Shown: positions 34,651 through 40,969, counted from the stretch's first letter. The stretch is 64,000 nt of DNA from Natronomonas pharaonis DSM 2160 (GCF_000026045.1 NC_007426.1:186001-250000), one strand, 5' to 3'. A program made the numbers and translations. The notes: generated by a model not told the origin, from the letters alone.

Positions 34651-35733
34651 ATGACAGTCGTCGCGGAACTACAGGAATCCTACGGGGCGACGTTCACCGA
34701 ACGCGGCGGCCGGCAGGTTGTCGACCACTACGGGCGGCCGGAGCGAGTCCACAGAGCGGTTCGGAACGTCGTTGGGACCGTCGAGATGGGGTATGGAATC
34801 ATCGACGTCGGCGGCGACGACCGCCTTGAGTTCGTCGACAACGCCGTCACCAACCGAGTTCCGGAGACGGACGGCGCAGGAAGCTATGCACTACTGTTGG
34901 ACCCACAGGGCGGCATCGAAACTGAACTCTACATCTACAACGCCGGCGAGCGGCTGCTGTGCTTCGTTCCGCCGGGGCGGGCCGAGCCGGTCGCCGAGGA
35001 GTGGGCCGACAAGACGTTCATCCAGGATGTCGACATCAATGTCGCGACCGACGACTACGGGGTCTTCGGCGTCCACGGCCCGAAGGCGACCGAGAAGGTC
35101 GCCTCGGTGCTGACCGGCCCGACGACACCCGAGGAGCCGCTTGAGTTCGTCCGCGGGCGCGTCGGCGACTGGGGGACGACCGTCATCCGTACCGACGGCC
35201 TCACCGGCGAGGAGGGGTACGAAATCGTCTGTGCGGCCGACGACGCCGCGAACGTCTTCGATGCGCTCGTCAACCACGGGCTCAACGCGGCCCCGTTCGG
35301 CTACCGGACGCTGGAGTATCTGTGGCTCGAAGCGGGGACGCCGCTCTTCGAGACGGAACTGGAGGGGACGGTCCCCAACGTCCTCGGATTGCGGAACGCG
35401 CTCGACTTCGAGAAGGGCTGTTATGTCGGCCAAGAGGTCGTCTCCAAGATCGAAAACCAAGGGCGGCCGTCCAGAGAGCTCGTCGGCATCAAACTCGACG
35501 CGGAGCCGACGGCCGGGGCAGCAGTCTTCGACGGCGACAGCCACGTCGGCGAGGTGACCCGCGGCGACTACAGCCCGGCGCTTGACGGCGCAATCGCGCT
35601 CGCGCTCGTTGAGTACGGGCTCGAAAGCGACGACCTGACGGTCCGCATCGACAGTGACGATGTCGCCGCAGAGCGTGTCCAGCTCCCGTTCGTCGACGGG
35701 TCGGCACGGTCGGCACGACTCCCGAGCTACTGA
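34651..35733 (+). CDS. ygfZ: YgfZ/GcvT-like folate-binding protein
   Basis: A 360-residue protein of the aminomethyltransferase superfamily. It carries the YgfZ signature KGCYVGQEVVSKIENQG (about residue 258) with its conserved cysteine, which marks proteins that help Fe-S cluster enzymes rather than glycine cleavage. The GcvT-type core includes GIIDVGGDDRLEFVDNAVTN and FGVHGPKATEKV. No other glycine-cleavage gene is nearby, which fits the YgfZ role. The ATG at 34651 lies about 27 bases after a TATA-like TTTTACG, so the message is leaderless. Confidence 0.85.
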   Translation: MTVVAELQESYGATFTERGGRQVVDHYGRPERVHRAVRNVVGTVEMGYGIIDVGGDDRLEFVDNAVTNRVPETDGAGSYALLLDPQGGIETELYIYNAGERLLCFVPPGRAEPVAEEWADKTFIQDVDINVATDDYGVFGVHGPKATEKVASVLTGPTTPEEPLEFVRGRVGDWGTTVIRTDGLTGEEGYEIVCAADDAANVFDALVNHGLNAAPFGYRTLEYLWLEAGTPLFETELEGTVPNVLGLRNALDFEKGCYVGQEVVSKIENQGRPSRELVGIKLDAEPTAGAAVFDGDSHVGEVTRGDYSPALDGAIALALVEYGLESDDLTVRIDSDDVAAERVQLPFVDGSARSARLPSY

Positions 35734-35787: not shown

Positions 35788-37041
35788 ATGTCCGGCGACG
35801 TACTCGTAGTGACAAGTGGCAAGGGCGGCGTCGGGAAGACGACGACAGTTGTCAATCTCGCCATCGCACTCCGCCAGCACGGCCACTCGGTGGCGGTCCT
35901 CGACGCCGACCTCGGCATGCCGGATGTCGGGGAGTTCCTCAGTATCGACGCGAAGCCGACGCTACACGACGTTCTGGCCGGCCGAGCGGATATTACTGAA
36001 GCAACCGTCGAAATCGGCGACGGGCTGGCGTTCGTCTTCGGCGATACCTCGCTTGAGGGATTCGCACAGGCGGACCCCGCAAAGCTGGAAGCCGTTATCA
36101 GCGACCTCACTGACGAGTACCAGTGTGTCCTCGTCGACACCGGTGGCGGCCTGACCTACGAGACAGTGTTCCCGATGGACCTTGGCGATGCCGTCCTGCT
36201 GGTGACATCGCCGGTGCCGGCCGCCATCGCAGACACAAAAAAGAGCAAGCAGGTCGCCGAACGGCTCGGTGTGCCAGTCTGCGGCGTCGTCGTGACACAC
36301 GCTGATGGCGACGCACACCCCGAATCCGTCGCCAGTGAACTGGATGTCGACTTTCTCGGCAGTGTTCCGGACGACGAGGCCATCGTCGAAAGCGCCGCCA
36401 AGCGGCAGCCCGTCGTTGCGTACGCGCCCGAAAGCGCAGCCACAGTCGCCTACTACCGGCTGGCCGAGCGCATCGCCGACGAGGAGACTGCCGCGCTCGA
36501 ACCGCTCGACACGGCCGCGAAGGCTCCCGAAGAGGTCTTCGAGTCCGCAACGGATATCACGGATGTCGACGACAGCGACGACGCCACGGAATCGGAAGCA
36601 GACGGCGAGTCGGACGCGGAACCGGACACCGAAGCGGAGAGAGACGAAAGCGGAGACGAAGCGGAACCCAGAGGCGCCGAGGACGATGATGCCAGCGAAG
36701 CCGATAGTGAAGCGGCGGTGGGCGAAAGCGAAAATGAAGTAGAAGACACAGGCGGCGACGGCCGGACGGAAGCGGACGACGGGAAGCGCCACGGTGTCGA
36801 CGACACATCGGACGCGGACGACGAGAAGCCGGCCGCCGATGAACCGACGACAGAGGCAAAAACGCCGGCTGAAATGGCTGGCGGAATCGATGAACCGGAG
36901 CCGGGCCTACACACCGGAGGTACCGACGACGCGGATGCTAGCGAGGAAGGGGCCCGTGGTGGCCGTGATGATACAGAAACAGAAGACGGCTCAAAAGACG
37001 ACGAGGGGTTCTTCGACCGGCTGTTCTCGCGGTTCCGGTAG
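35788..37041 (+). CDS. minD: MinD/ParA-type ATPase with long acidic tail and amphipathic C-terminus
   Basis: A 417-residue protein. Residues 1-245 are a MinD-type ATPase: deviant Walker A GKGGVGKTTTVVNL (11-24), LDADLGMPDVGEFL, and the Walker B-like LVDTGGGLTYETV. Residues about 250-400 are a disordered tail of Asp, Glu, Ser and Gly. The last 12 residues, EGFFDRLFSRFR, form a short amphipathic helix similar in kind to the membrane-targeting sequence of bacterial MinD. Haloarchaea have several MinD paralogs; one (MinD4 of Haloferax) affects polar positioning. This gene converges, six bases apart, on the coiled-coil protein gene. Partner relationship is inference. Confidence 0.85.
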   Translation: MSGDVLVVTSGKGGVGKTTTVVNLAIALRQHGHSVAVLDADLGMPDVGEFLSIDAKPTLHDVLAGRADITEATVEIGDGLAFVFGDTSLEGFAQADPAKLEAVISDLTDEYQCVLVDTGGGLTYETVFPMDLGDAVLLVTSPVPAAIADTKKSKQVAERLGVPVCGVVVTHADGDAHPESVASELDVDFLGSVPDDEAIVESAAKRQPVVAYAPESAATVAYYRLAERIADEETAALEPLDTAAKAPEEVFESATDITDVDDSDDATESEADGESDAEPDTEAERDESGDEAEPRGAEDDDASEADSEAAVGESENEVEDTGGDGRTEADDGKRHGVDDTSDADDEKPAADEPTTEAKTPAEMAGGIDEPEPGLHTGGTDDADASEEGARGGRDDTETEDGSKDDEGFFDRLFSRFR

Positions 37042-37047
37042 CGCCGG

Positions 37048-39351
37048 TCAGGTGTCGCCGCCCTGGAACGCCCCCGACAGCTGTTCTTTGAACGATTCGA
37101 GTTCGTCGAGCCGGTCGTGTATCTCTTCGAGTTCGCCTTCGAGTCGGTCGAACTTCGACTCGAGGTCAGTCTGCGTGTCGGCAACAGCGTCGATGTTGGC
37201 CTCAAGGTCCGACTGGACGGCGCGTATCTCTTCGAGGTCCGTGCCGATAGTCGATTCGAGGTCCATGTAGCTGTCCCTGACCGATTCGATTTCCGACGCC
37301 AGTTCCGATTGGCCGTCCTTGACGGAGGTTAGTTCGGCCGTCAGTTCCGACTGCTCGTCGCTGACCGCGTTCACCTCCGATGCCAGCGCCGATTGCTCTT
37401 CGTCTATCGATTCAACGGTCGCATCAAGTGCGGACTGTCCGGCTTCGAGGGATTCGACTGTCGCCGACAACTCCGATTGCTCCGTAGCTACTGACTCTAC
37501 CGTCTCCGACAACTCCGATTGCTCCGTAGCTACTGACTCTACCGTCTCTGACAGCTCTGATTGCTCCGAAGCTACTGATTCTACCGTCTCCGACAACTCC
37601 GATTGCTCCGAAGCTACTGAATCAACTGTCTCCGACAGCTCTGACTGCTCCGAAGCCACCGACTCGACTGTCTCCGACAACTCCGATTGTGCCGTCTCAA
37701 CGGCGTCGACATCGTCAACGACGGCCTCGTGGTCCGCTTGGAGGTCATCGACGGTCGCTTCGATGGCGTTCTGGTTCGATGTGAGTGATTCGATGTCCTC
37801 TTCAACATCGGTAAGCGGCGCAACGGTCTCGGAGAGTTCGTCGACAGCCGAATCGAGCGCTTGGGTGCGGTCATCAAGCGACGACAGCTCCGAGTTGAGG
37901 TCTTCGACGACTGAATCGAGTGTGCCGTGCTGGTCGATGAACGCTTCGAGAGTGTCAGCATAGGCGGCAAAGTCGCTGACTTCGCTTTGGAGGTGGTCGA
38001 TACGGACCTCCTGGCTGCGGCTCCCGCGTGCACCGAGCTTTGTCCGGAGCGCCGACAGCGTCTCGTCGGTGACGTATCCTTCCTGTAGCTCCTTCAACAG
38101 GACCCGGGCAATGCCACCGGAGGGGGCCGCAAGGCCGCCCGGCGCGCCAGCGGGGCTGCCAGCGGCGTCCGTCGCCGAGTCGTCGCTTCCCGCCGCTTCT
38201 GTGTCTGGCGAGTCGCCACCGCTGGCTGCCTCGCCAGCCTCGGGTGTATCCTGTCGGCCTGTATCGTCAGCTACGGCCGCTTCATCCAGTGCATCATCCA
38301 GTTCCGCCTCCGGCGTCGTGTCGGCAACTGGCGGGCTGGTATCGCTGGCTTCGTCGTCGACTTCGTCAGCCGGGGCGGCCGCGCTGTCGGCTGTCGACGA
38401 CGACGTATCCGCCTCGTCAGCCGGCGAGTCGATGTCCGCAGCGGCCGCAGTCGGCTCGTCGGCGCCCGTGTCGGCATCAGCAGCCTCGTCGCCTGCCGTT
38501 TCGGCAGCCGGCTCAGTCGCTTCGGGGGCCGACGCTACATCCGCCGCAGCCGGCTCGTCGCCACCGGCTGTAGGCTCACTGGCGGCTTCGTCATCGCTTT
38601 CGGCGGCGTCGACCGCATCCGCGTCGGCCGACGGTGTCTCCGCTTCGAGTGTGGACGGCTCGTCGGCTGCTTCCTCGGCGGGTACGTCGTCCGTCGTCTC
38701 AAGCAGGTCCCGTTCAGCGGCTGCAAGACCGCTTGCCTCGTCGTCGACCGCATCCGCGTCGGTCGGCGGCTCCGGGCCGGCGTCGGCTTCCGCCCCGGCC
38801 GTTGGTGCTGGGTCGGCGGCCGTCGACTCCGTGTCAGAGGTGTCCTCTGAGGCAGGCTGTGCCGCTCCCATCTCATCGGGCGAGCCAGCGGTCGAGCCGT
38901 CGGCCGTGTCGTCAGCCGCTTCGGCCTCGTCGGCGGCCGGCAGCGAGTCGCGCTCACCACCGACGAACTCCCGGAGCGCATCGGAGCGGGCGCGGTCAAC
39001 GAGGCTGTCGAGGTCCGGACCGTCCGCAACTGATAGCTCCGGCTCCGTCGTCAGCGACTCGGGGTCCGCGTCGGGGACCCGATAGAGGACCGTATACTGT
39101 TCGCCGGGCTCGAACTCCCGTTCGAACACCGGGGCGTCGCCGACGACCCAGTGTTCGGCCCCGTAGTCGGTGTGGAACTGGATGTCCGACTCGGGGCGTG
39201 AATCGAGCGCGGGGTCCGTCAGCCGGAGTGTTACGAGCGCGTCGCGCTCCGACGCGATTTCGAGCCGTACTCGGCCGTCGGCGGCGACCGCCTTCCGGAC
39301 GGTGACGCCGTCTTCATCGACGTTCAGTGTGGCTTCTGTCCCCTCGTCCAT
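37048..39351 (-). CDS. 767-residue coiled-coil protein with tetradecad repeats
   Basis: Not assigned to a named family. Residues 1-105 form a beta-rich domain (EATLNVDEDGVTVRKAVAAD, VTLRLTDPALDSRPESD, FEPGEQYTVLYRVPD). Residues about 140-405 are a disordered Ala/Asp/Glu/Thr/Ser linker. Residues about 410-480 are a helical unit (GGIARVLLKELQEGYVTDET, LQSEVSDFAAYADTLEAFID), followed by a long coiled coil to the end. Residues about 552-694 contain about ten 14-residue repeats of the type QSELSETVESVASE. There is no signal peptide or membrane segment, so it is cytoplasmic. It lies tail-to-tail with the MinD-type ATPase; the architecture suggests a scaffold or cell-organising filament. Confidence 0.75.
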   Translation of the reverse strand: MDEGTEATLNVDEDGVTVRKAVAADGRVRLEIASERDALVTLRLTDPALDSRPESDIQFHTDYGAEHWVVGDAPVFEREFEPGEQYTVLYRVPDADPESLTTEPELSVADGPDLDSLVDRARSDALREFVGGERDSLPAADEAEAADDTADGSTAGSPDEMGAAQPASEDTSDTESTAADPAPTAGAEADAGPEPPTDADAVDDEASGLAAAERDLLETTDDVPAEEAADEPSTLEAETPSADADAVDAAESDDEAASEPTAGGDEPAAADVASAPEATEPAAETAGDEAADADTGADEPTAAAADIDSPADEADTSSSTADSAAAPADEVDDEASDTSPPVADTTPEAELDDALDEAAVADDTGRQDTPEAGEAASGGDSPDTEAAGSDDSATDAAGSPAGAPGGLAAPSGGIARVLLKELQEGYVTDETLSALRTKLGARGSRSQEVRIDHLQSEVSDFAAYADTLEAFIDQHGTLDSVVEDLNSELSSLDDRTQALDSAVDELSETVAPLTDVEEDIESLTSNQNAIEATVDDLQADHEAVVDDVDAVETAQSELSETVESVASEQSELSETVDSVASEQSELSETVESVASEQSELSETVESVATEQSELSETVESVATEQSELSATVESLEAGQSALDATVESIDEEQSALASEVNAVSDEQSELTAELTSVKDGQSELASEIESVRDSYMDLESTIGTDLEEIRAVQSDLEANIDAVADTQTDLESKFDRLEGELEEIHDRLDELESFKEQLSGAFQGGDT
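37270..37695 (-). repeat. In-frame 42-bp tandem repeats encoding a coiled coil
   Basis: About ten 42-base units, each coding 14 residues with consensus QSELSETVESVASE. The central five or six units are nearly identical in DNA (for example GAAGCTACTGA and TCCGACAACTCC on the plus strand), while the outer units have diverged. Unit length is two heptads, so copy changes keep frame and coiled-coil register. Confidence 0.85.
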
Positions 39352-39418: not shown

Positions 39419-40969
39419 TCAGCGGCGGCTGCTCTCCAGTTCGATATCGAGGTCCGCCAGCAGTTCCCGTGCCTCCTCGCGTTTCTCTTGGTGGTCGTCG
39501 AGGAACTCGGCCATCAGTTCGGCGGCCTGCTCCTTGCAGCCACCACAGAGGCGGTCGCCGCCGATGCACTCGTCGTAGACCTCGGTCGCGAGGCCGTCGT
39601 CGTCGCCGGCGAGCAGATAGGCGTATAGCTCATAGACGGGGCAGCCGTCGGGCTCGCCGCCCAGTTCACGCTGCTTTTCGGCGGTTTCGCGGCCGCCGGT
39701 CGCCGCGGCCTTGACCTTGTCGTAGCCGTCTTCCGGGTCGTCGAGCAGGCTGATGTGGCTGGCGGGGTCCGACGACGACATCTTGCCACCGGTAAGCCCG
39801 GTCATAAACCGGTGGTATATCGACGACGGCGGCCGGAAGCCGTAGCCACCGTGGTCGAGTTCGACCTCGCGGGCCAGCTCCGCCGCGGCTTCGCGGTCGA
39901 GCTCGAAGCTGTCGATGTGGCCTTCGTAGACCCGTTTTTCGCCGTCGATGGCTTCGATGAGCGCTTCAAAGGCGTCCGCGGTCGCGTTTCGGTCGAAGAA
40001 GCGAACACGTGGGCGTAGCGGCTCTTTGCCGCCGGCGTCGAGCTTTGCGACCGCACTCTCCAGCGCCGGGTCGTCCGGGGCTTCCGACTCCAACCATGCG
40101 GCGGCGTCCGAACACCGTACGTCGTCTTCGTTGTCGGCCAGCGCCTCGTAGGCGCGGGCGACGAGGTCGCGTTCGGCGTCTTCCAGCTCGAAGCTCGCGT
40201 AGGCCTTGGTCACCTTGAAATACCGCATCCGCGAGGCGAGGTCCCGCGCAAGTCGGACGTGGGGGTCTTGGTCGGGGCCAACGGGGATGACCGTCGGCTT
40301 CGGCTCGTCGAGTTGCGGATAGAGGATATCCGCCATCTGGGTGACGACCGACTGCATGTGCGAGACCGACGTTTCGCCGTCGAAGCCGTAGATGCCCTGA
40401 AACTCCGAGAAGTTGGCCTTTGCGCCGAGCTCAAAGGCCAGCTCCTGCAGTTCGTCGTTTTCGCTTTGCCGGTAGAGTTCGCCCTCATCGGGGTCGAAGC
40501 CGAGCGCCAAAAGCGAAAGCAGGTAGCTCTCGGCGTGCTCGTCGATTTCCGTCCACGACATCCCGCGTGCGGAGTTGGCTTCGAGGTCGGCAATGAGGGC
40601 GTAAACGTCGCCGCCCTGCTGTTGGTGCCAGATGAGTTCGTCGAAAACGAGCTTGTGGCCGATGTGTGGGTCGCCGGTCGGCATGAAGCCCGAAAGCGCC
40701 GCGAACGGCTCGTCGTTGGCCATCGCCTCGGCGACCGGCTCGTAGTCGCGGTGGCCAAAGATGACGCCGCGGCGCATCAGGTAGTGGGGGTTCGGTACGT
40801 CCGCAAGAAGCGCATCGAACGTCTCGATGCCGAACTCCTCGAAGAGCTTCCGGTAGTCGGCGACCGTCGACGAGCCCCACGGGTCGAGGGTAACGTCGTC
40901 GGCTCCCTTCGTCCCGCCGTCGGTCCGGGCGGGCGCGACCGGCTCCGTGTGGGGGTCGTCGTCCGTCAT
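39419..40969 (-). CDS. trpS: Tryptophanyl-tRNA synthetase
   Basis: A 516-residue class I aminoacyl-tRNA synthetase that charges tRNA-Trp. The HIGH-type motif is PTGDPHIGHKL (about residue 105) and the KMSKS-type motif is GGKMSSSDPASH (about residue 397). The archaeal/eukaryal-type body includes MPTGDPHIGHKLVFDELIWH and PVGPDQDPHVRLARD. The C-terminal region has a CIGGDRLCGGCKEQ cysteine cluster that may bind zinc. The ATG at 40969 is chosen as the start of the acidic leader; the frame is open to 41059 but overlaps the end of endA. Lies 60 bases downstream of endA on the same strand. Confidence 0.94.
   Translation of the reverse strand: MTDDDPHTEPVAPARTDGGTKGADDVTLDPWGSSTVADYRKLFEEFGIETFDALLADVPNPHYLMRRGVIFGHRDYEPVAEAMANDEPFAALSGFMPTGDPHIGHKLVFDELIWHQQQGGDVYALIADLEANSARGMSWTEIDEHAESYLLSLLALGFDPDEGELYRQSENDELQELAFELGAKANFSEFQGIYGFDGETSVSHMQSVVTQMADILYPQLDEPKPTVIPVGPDQDPHVRLARDLASRMRYFKVTKAYASFELEDAERDLVARAYEALADNEDDVRCSDAAAWLESEAPDDPALESAVAKLDAGGKEPLRPRVRFFDRNATADAFEALIEAIDGEKRVYEGHIDSFELDREAAAELAREVELDHGGYGFRPPSSIYHRFMTGLTGGKMSSSDPASHISLLDDPEDGYDKVKAAATGGRETAEKQRELGGEPDGCPVYELYAYLLAGDDDGLATEVYDECIGGDRLCGGCKEQAAELMAEFLDDHQEKREEARELLADLDIELESSRR

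Follow-up and report, generated by a model that had tools for sequence, protein, structure and literature searches.

A MinD4-like ATPase encoded tail to tail with an Ig-like/coiled-coil protein in Natronomonas, a candidate positioning module

Introduction

ATP-bound dimers of MinD family ATPases attach to the membrane through a C-terminal amphipathic helix, and the activators of ParA/MinD ATPases carry a short basic activating peptide. Among haloarchaea, MinD4 of H. volcanii oscillates, forms polar caps and needs its C-terminal tail (PMC11621097, PMC11588486). It places archaella and chemosensory arrays at the cell poles (PMC11588486, PMC11621097), and loss of its tail impairs motility (PMC11621097). 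For the MinD proteins of haloarchaea, a partner resembling MinE has yet to be identified (PMC11621097).

Here we describe a locus within a stretch of 64,000 nucleotides from Natronomonas pharaonis DSM 2160 (NC_007426.1:186001-250000), hereafter the window; positions without a prefix are counted from its first letter. An earlier note on this DNA had proposed that a MinD-type ATPase and a coiled-coil protein encoded here form an undescribed system of cell organisation. We compare both proteins with their haloarchaeal relatives and weigh this proposal against its alternatives.

Results

Organisation of the locus

The site is bordered on the left by a YgfZ/GcvT-like gene (34651..35733, plus strand), which adjoins trpS in genomes lacking the pair, and on the right by the tryptophanyl-tRNA synthetase gene trpS (39419..40969, minus strand), followed by EndA. 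Between these lie two convergent genes with a gap of 6 bp, the first encoding a MinD/ParA-type ATPase of 417 aa (35788..37041, plus strand) and the second a coiled-coil protein of 767 aa (37048..39351, minus strand), here termed CC2. The two ORFs and their tail-to-tail arrangement, as given in the earlier note, were confirmed to the coordinate. Both appear to be genuine genes subject to purifying selection, with dN lower than dS in all ortholog pairs for each of them.

The ATPase is a variant of a known haloarchaeal MinD type

The ATPase domain of the window MinD (aa 1–236, 35788..36495, plus strand, as are the features that follow it) contains an intact deviant Walker A motif, SGKGGVGKTTT, with the signature lysine K12 and the P-loop lysine K17, together with the switch aspartates D41 and D117. 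All four residues occupy invariant columns of the MinD alignment, and the combination of motif and aspartates assigns the protein to the ParA/MinD ATPase family. At residue 46 (codon 35923-35925), where the DADLGMPN motif otherwise has a conserved Asn, the window MinD carries Asp; the three orthologues retain Asn.

The ATPase domain is followed by an acidic low-complexity region (aa 237–406, 36496..37005) and by the C-terminal amphipathic patch GFFDRLFSRFR (37006..37038), a candidate membrane-targeting sequence with a hydrophobic moment of 0.63 over the last 11 residues, whose counterparts in orthologues are GLFRRILGRFR and GFFSRLTGIFG. Both the acidic tail (182 aa, 37% D+E) and the amphipathic C-terminal helix reported previously for this protein were seen. 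The idea that the tail is an unusual addition to a MinD was rejected: tails of this kind, or longer ones, are present in many MinDs encoded between prf1 (release factor) and argS and characterise much of that radiation. Because an acidic tail and an amphipathic C-terminus are common in this group, their presence in the window MinD is not special.

The NCBIfam profile TIGR01969 (minD_arch) matched the window MinD across the ATPase domain (E = 2.9e-56), with a score of 190.5 bits that does not reach the cut-off of 201.75 bits; only 8 of 40 relatives have any gene that does. Profile matches to the solved MinD proteins 1hyq and 1g3q had E values of about 1e-58, and the closest solved relatives were archaeal MinD structures, then FleN/FlhG. 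A profile scan of named genomes returned mostly distant bacterial MinDs and one useful haloarchaeon, Haladaptatus. Matches to the window MinD at E<=1e-40 were present in 318 of 391 haloarchaeal genomes and, at the loci read outside Natronomonas, the best match was usually flanked by prf1 and argS, with the A-type ATP synthase operon nearby. The window MinD, located between ygfZ and CC2/trpS and not between prf1 and argS, is 43–48% identical to the MinDs of that site and about 35% identical to a MinD2-like paralogue. In the phylogenetic tree the four window-type MinDs, which share 61–75% identity among Natronomonas, grouped together (98/100) at the end of a long stem that arises within the argS-site radiation, where branch order is poorly resolved, and stood apart from the 254-aa MinD2-like clade and from the other paralogue clades.

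Since the H. volcanii atp operon is HVO_0311-0317 and MinD4 is HVO_0322, the MinD of the prf1-argS site is presumably MinD4, an assignment drawn from the gene order after HVO_0311-0317. The extent of the atp operon is that described in PMC3828320; annotation of HVO_0319-0323 was looked for in papers and not found. We regard the window MinD as a variant of an established haloarchaeal type. A prf1-argS-site MinD was not found in any of 20 Natronomonas genomes, including that of the motile N. moolapensis, and the four window-type MinDs were the sole Natronomonas matches of E<=1e-40 strength. In genus g25, two genomes (G086 and G135, loci L129 and L130) encode a second, short MinD of 240–247 aa beside the gene for a ThrRS-like protein; this MinD seems to be one more paralogue derived from MinD4.

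Domain structure of CC2 and its haloarchaeal family

CC2, all features of which are encoded on the minus strand, begins with an acidic N-terminus (MDEGTEATLNVDEDG) and an N-terminal domain (aa 1–125, 38977..39351) that AlphaFold2 models as an Ig-like beta-sandwich, with pLDDT above 90 over aa 11–110. This is followed by an acidic, Ala-rich linker (aa 126–411, 38119..38976; 29% Ala and 30% D+E over 270 aa) predicted from its composition to be disordered, and by a conserved helical signature (aa 412–480, 37912..38118) containing RIDHLQSEVSDFAAYADTLEAFIDQHG, which AlphaFold2 models as all helical and in which R, L, Q, A, Y, F and G are invariant in the alignment. The C-terminal part is a long coiled coil (aa 481–760, 37072..37911) with a clean hydrophobic period of 3.50 residues, within a continuous helix predicted by AlphaFold2 from aa 478. 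Here a tandem repeat of 42 bp (37460..37689; 5.5 copies, 88% matches) encodes 14-residue, two-heptad units, EQSELSETVESVAS; the array is absent from the aligned orthologues, relative to which it enlarges the coil. No hydrophobic segment of the 767-aa protein was strong enough for a membrane span (maximum KD19 0.98).

The earlier description of a repeat-bearing protein with a beta domain, a linker and a coiled coil was borne out by these analyses, whereas the term giant proved overstated. Orthologues range from 376 to 539 aa, those adjacent to MinD (the window protein included) having 376, 394, 421 and 767 aa, and the window CC2 is long because its linker and coil are expanded. The N-terminal domain and the helical signature are conserved among orthologues; the linker and the coil vary freely.

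Sequence searches of Pfam, NCBIfam and PDB gave no match for the beta domain of CC2. A fold search against the PDB returned nothing at E<=1e-3; the delta-COP mu-homology domain and a cellulose-binding domain came up weakly. Where SMC, Rad50, EzrA, ZapB and SNARE-like models matched through the coil alone, the resemblance was put down to shared heptads and set aside; the matches to SMC, Rad50 and ASRP covered coil regions only, far below the cut-offs and with no ATPase head domains, and the Pfam matches to ZapB and EzrA remained below gathering scores.

A profile search detected homologues of the CC2 domain in 226 of 242 haloarchaeal genomes, usually as one copy each. As this profile included window-type sequences, individual universal copies were independently compared with the window protein by BLASTP, which gave masked E values of 1e-12 to 1e-20; the aligned beta domains were 30–42% identical. 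CC2 also carries the helical signature of the family (R..HLQ, AY and F..G, then the coil). On sequence comparison, CC2 is a paralogue of an unnamed Ig/coiled-coil family composed of an Ig-like domain, an acidic linker, a helical signature and a coil. The CC2 copies formed one clade in the tree (100/98), separate from the universal copies, and N. pharaonis encodes two family members, the window CC2 and the usual copy (beta domain at C1:1522262-1522672; L112 7237-8673). At the loci read in Natronomonas and its relatives, the universal copy is accompanied by a metallo-beta-lactamase-fold gene and mostly by a diphthamide-synthase-like (Dph2-like) gene, with YlbF-like and HisG-like genes (the latter named by eye, without a Pfam match) as further common neighbours; at none of the loci read was it adjacent to MinD.

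Distribution of the pair

The pair is conserved in 4 of the 20 Natronomonas genomes (N. pharaonis, G004, G006 and G018). In all four genomes with a window-type MinD, CC2 lies tail to tail with it at gaps of 3–51 bp, and the gene order is ygfZ, minD, CC2, trpS, endA, with two further genes separating ygfZ from minD in G018. No direct MinD-CC2 adjacency was found outside Natronomonas in a class sample of 391 genomes. The conserved neighbourhood, suggested earlier as a check on the proposal, is a reality in these four genomes but is confined to one genus.

In G003, G005, G008 and G019, ygfZ directly adjoins trpS and both MinD and CC2 are absent; the region is rearranged in other species. In the fragmentary assembly G009 (L278, C573:1-4724), a CC2 of 539 aa adjoins ygfZ and MinD is missing. 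A tree built from TrpRS, EndA and YgfZ, some nodes of which are weak, disperses the four carriers across the genus, in each of its two halves, with the empty-site species nested with G004 and G006. The simplest reading of this tree, allowing for its weak nodes, is that an ancestral pair was lost jointly at least twice. Joint loss through one deletion is no proof of a functional link.

A second co-location was observed in genus g16, where G034 (L244, C1:1258000-1277000) and G043 (L245, C1:1374000-1393000) encode a MinD of 315 aa directly after arlI-arlJ and, about 4 kb from it, a duplicate of the coiled-coil family situated among cheW, an MCP gene, cheY, cheB and cheA in an archaellum/chemotaxis cluster. 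Because this duplicate groups in the tree with the universal copy of its own genus, and not with CC2, it represents a separate duplication; the two genomes are congeneric and therefore count as one event. Of the evidence from outside Natronomonas, this co-location speaks most strongly for a link between MinD and the coiled-coil family, and it points to motility or chemosensory machinery, positioning of the archaellum or of the arrays being a natural candidate for the role of the g16 proteins. Additional family copies outside g16 include two loci with a MinD-like gene approximately 2.5–5 kb away and other genes between, co-locations that are possibly due to chance.

Discussion

We tentatively favour, at somewhat less than an even chance, the view that the MinD4-type positioning ATPase and CC2 work together as a positioning module. 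A MinD4-type ATPase would have come to lie, in a Natronomonas ancestor, beside a duplicate of the near-universal Ig/coiled-coil protein. The MinD would bind ATP, dimerise and sit on the membrane via its C-terminal amphipathic helix, while CC2 would form a long dimer through its coil, with the Ig-like heads held on flexible acidic tethers. Either these heads or the helical signature may contact MinD or a cargo, and the membrane pattern of MinD would then place CC2 and its cargo at the poles or at another site. The undescribed organisation system envisaged in the earlier note accordingly survives in part. It draws support from the synteny of the pair in four of four genomes with a window-type MinD, the scattered carriers, the joint absences and the g16 co-location; against it stand a known MinD type with an ordinary tail, the restriction to one genus, the CC2 of G009 without MinD, and motility genes that do not co-vary with the pair.

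Joint function ranks barely above a view in which the two genes are unlinked neighbours, a MinD4 that moved to the ygfZ-trpS site and a coiled-coil duplicate that came to sit there too, inherited or deleted together by proximity, which we regard as a serious possibility of a little over a third. Being convergent, the genes are not co-transcribed; they are adjacent in one genus only, CC2 persists without MinD in G009, their joint loss may represent a single deletion, and the universal coiled-coil family and MinD4 lie apart at the loci read elsewhere. It is less easily reconciled with an adjacency that survives deep divergence within the genus, where the MinDs are only 61–75% identical and the gaps stay at 3–51 bp, or with the second co-location of MinD and the coiled-coil family in g16.

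It is unlikely that the pair serves, in Natronomonas, specifically as the MinD4 system for polar placement of archaella and chemosensory arrays. This reading has in its favour that MinD4 fulfils that task in H. volcanii (PMC11588486, PMC11621097), that archaellins and CheW-domain genes are present in N. pharaonis, and that the g16 MinD and duplicate lie in an arl/che cluster. The G018 genome (99% complete) carries the pair and yielded no archaellin or CheW matches, whereas G003, G005, G008 and G019 show the reverse, with archaellin and CheW present and the pair absent; G003 is the motile N. moolapensis, which has neither gene. The pair was rejected as a marker of motile species, since archaellin and chemotaxis genes do not co-vary with it in Natronomonas. 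Because archaellins and CheW were undetectable in G018, the cargo of the proposed module cannot be archaella or chemosensory arrays alone, and the pair would not serve motility exclusively.

A structural or filament-forming role for CC2 through self-assembly, perhaps shared by its universal relative, with MinD unrelated or regulating disassembly only, is quite improbable: the long regular heptad coil, its tandem two-heptad expansion and the near-universality of the family would suit such a role, but no filament family matched above its cut-off, and the highly variable length and linker of CC2 orthologues suggest a spacer-type function.

More broadly, the positioning-module reading could be extended to the whole near-universal Ig/coiled-coil family, whose members would be the partners so far missing for archaeal MinD proteins; their genes would ordinarily lie apart from minD, and the Natronomonas and g16 duplicates, moved next to or near a MinD, would expose the link. 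We consider this a long shot, about as doubtful as the polar archaellum reading. The new element of the locus is this circumstantial link between MinD and a near-universal, uncharacterised coiled-coil family. The locus names a specific candidate MinD partner, and the family behind it occurs in more than 90% of the sampled haloarchaeal genomes. If the link is true, the internal organisation of archaeal cells would become directly accessible to genetics. If it is false, a widely conserved and apparently unstudied protein family is still defined, and a whole genus appears to be without the MinD that occupies the prf1-argS site in most haloarchaea.

Among known systems, the proposed combination of an ATPase with a coiled-coil cell organiser resembles PomZ with PomX/PomY of Myxococcus and other ParA/MinD partner systems, with no sequence relation seen between the Pom proteins and the window pair. 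The N-terminus of CC2 is acidic, unlike the basic peptide of MinE/PomX-type activators. Universal Ig/coiled-coil copies share with CC2 the beta domain, acidic linker, helical signature and coil, but are usually single and lie near a metallo-beta-lactamase-fold, YlbF-like or Dph2-like gene. H. volcanii MinD2 (HVO_0595), like the window MinD, adjoins a gene of obscure function, the small HVO_0596; in contrast, N. pharaonis encodes its MinD2-like protein elsewhere (C1:2538560, next to an ORF of 176 aa), and the window MinD, about 35% identical to that protein, forms another clade. The closest kin are the prf1-argS-site MinDs, presumably MinD4, which share the acidic tail and often the amphipathic C-terminus. 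H. volcanii MinD4 (HVO_0322) is likewise a MinD-type ATPase with an extended tail, from which the window MinD differs in its ygfZ-trpS site, its long branch, its independence from motility genes across the genus and its coiled-coil neighbour.
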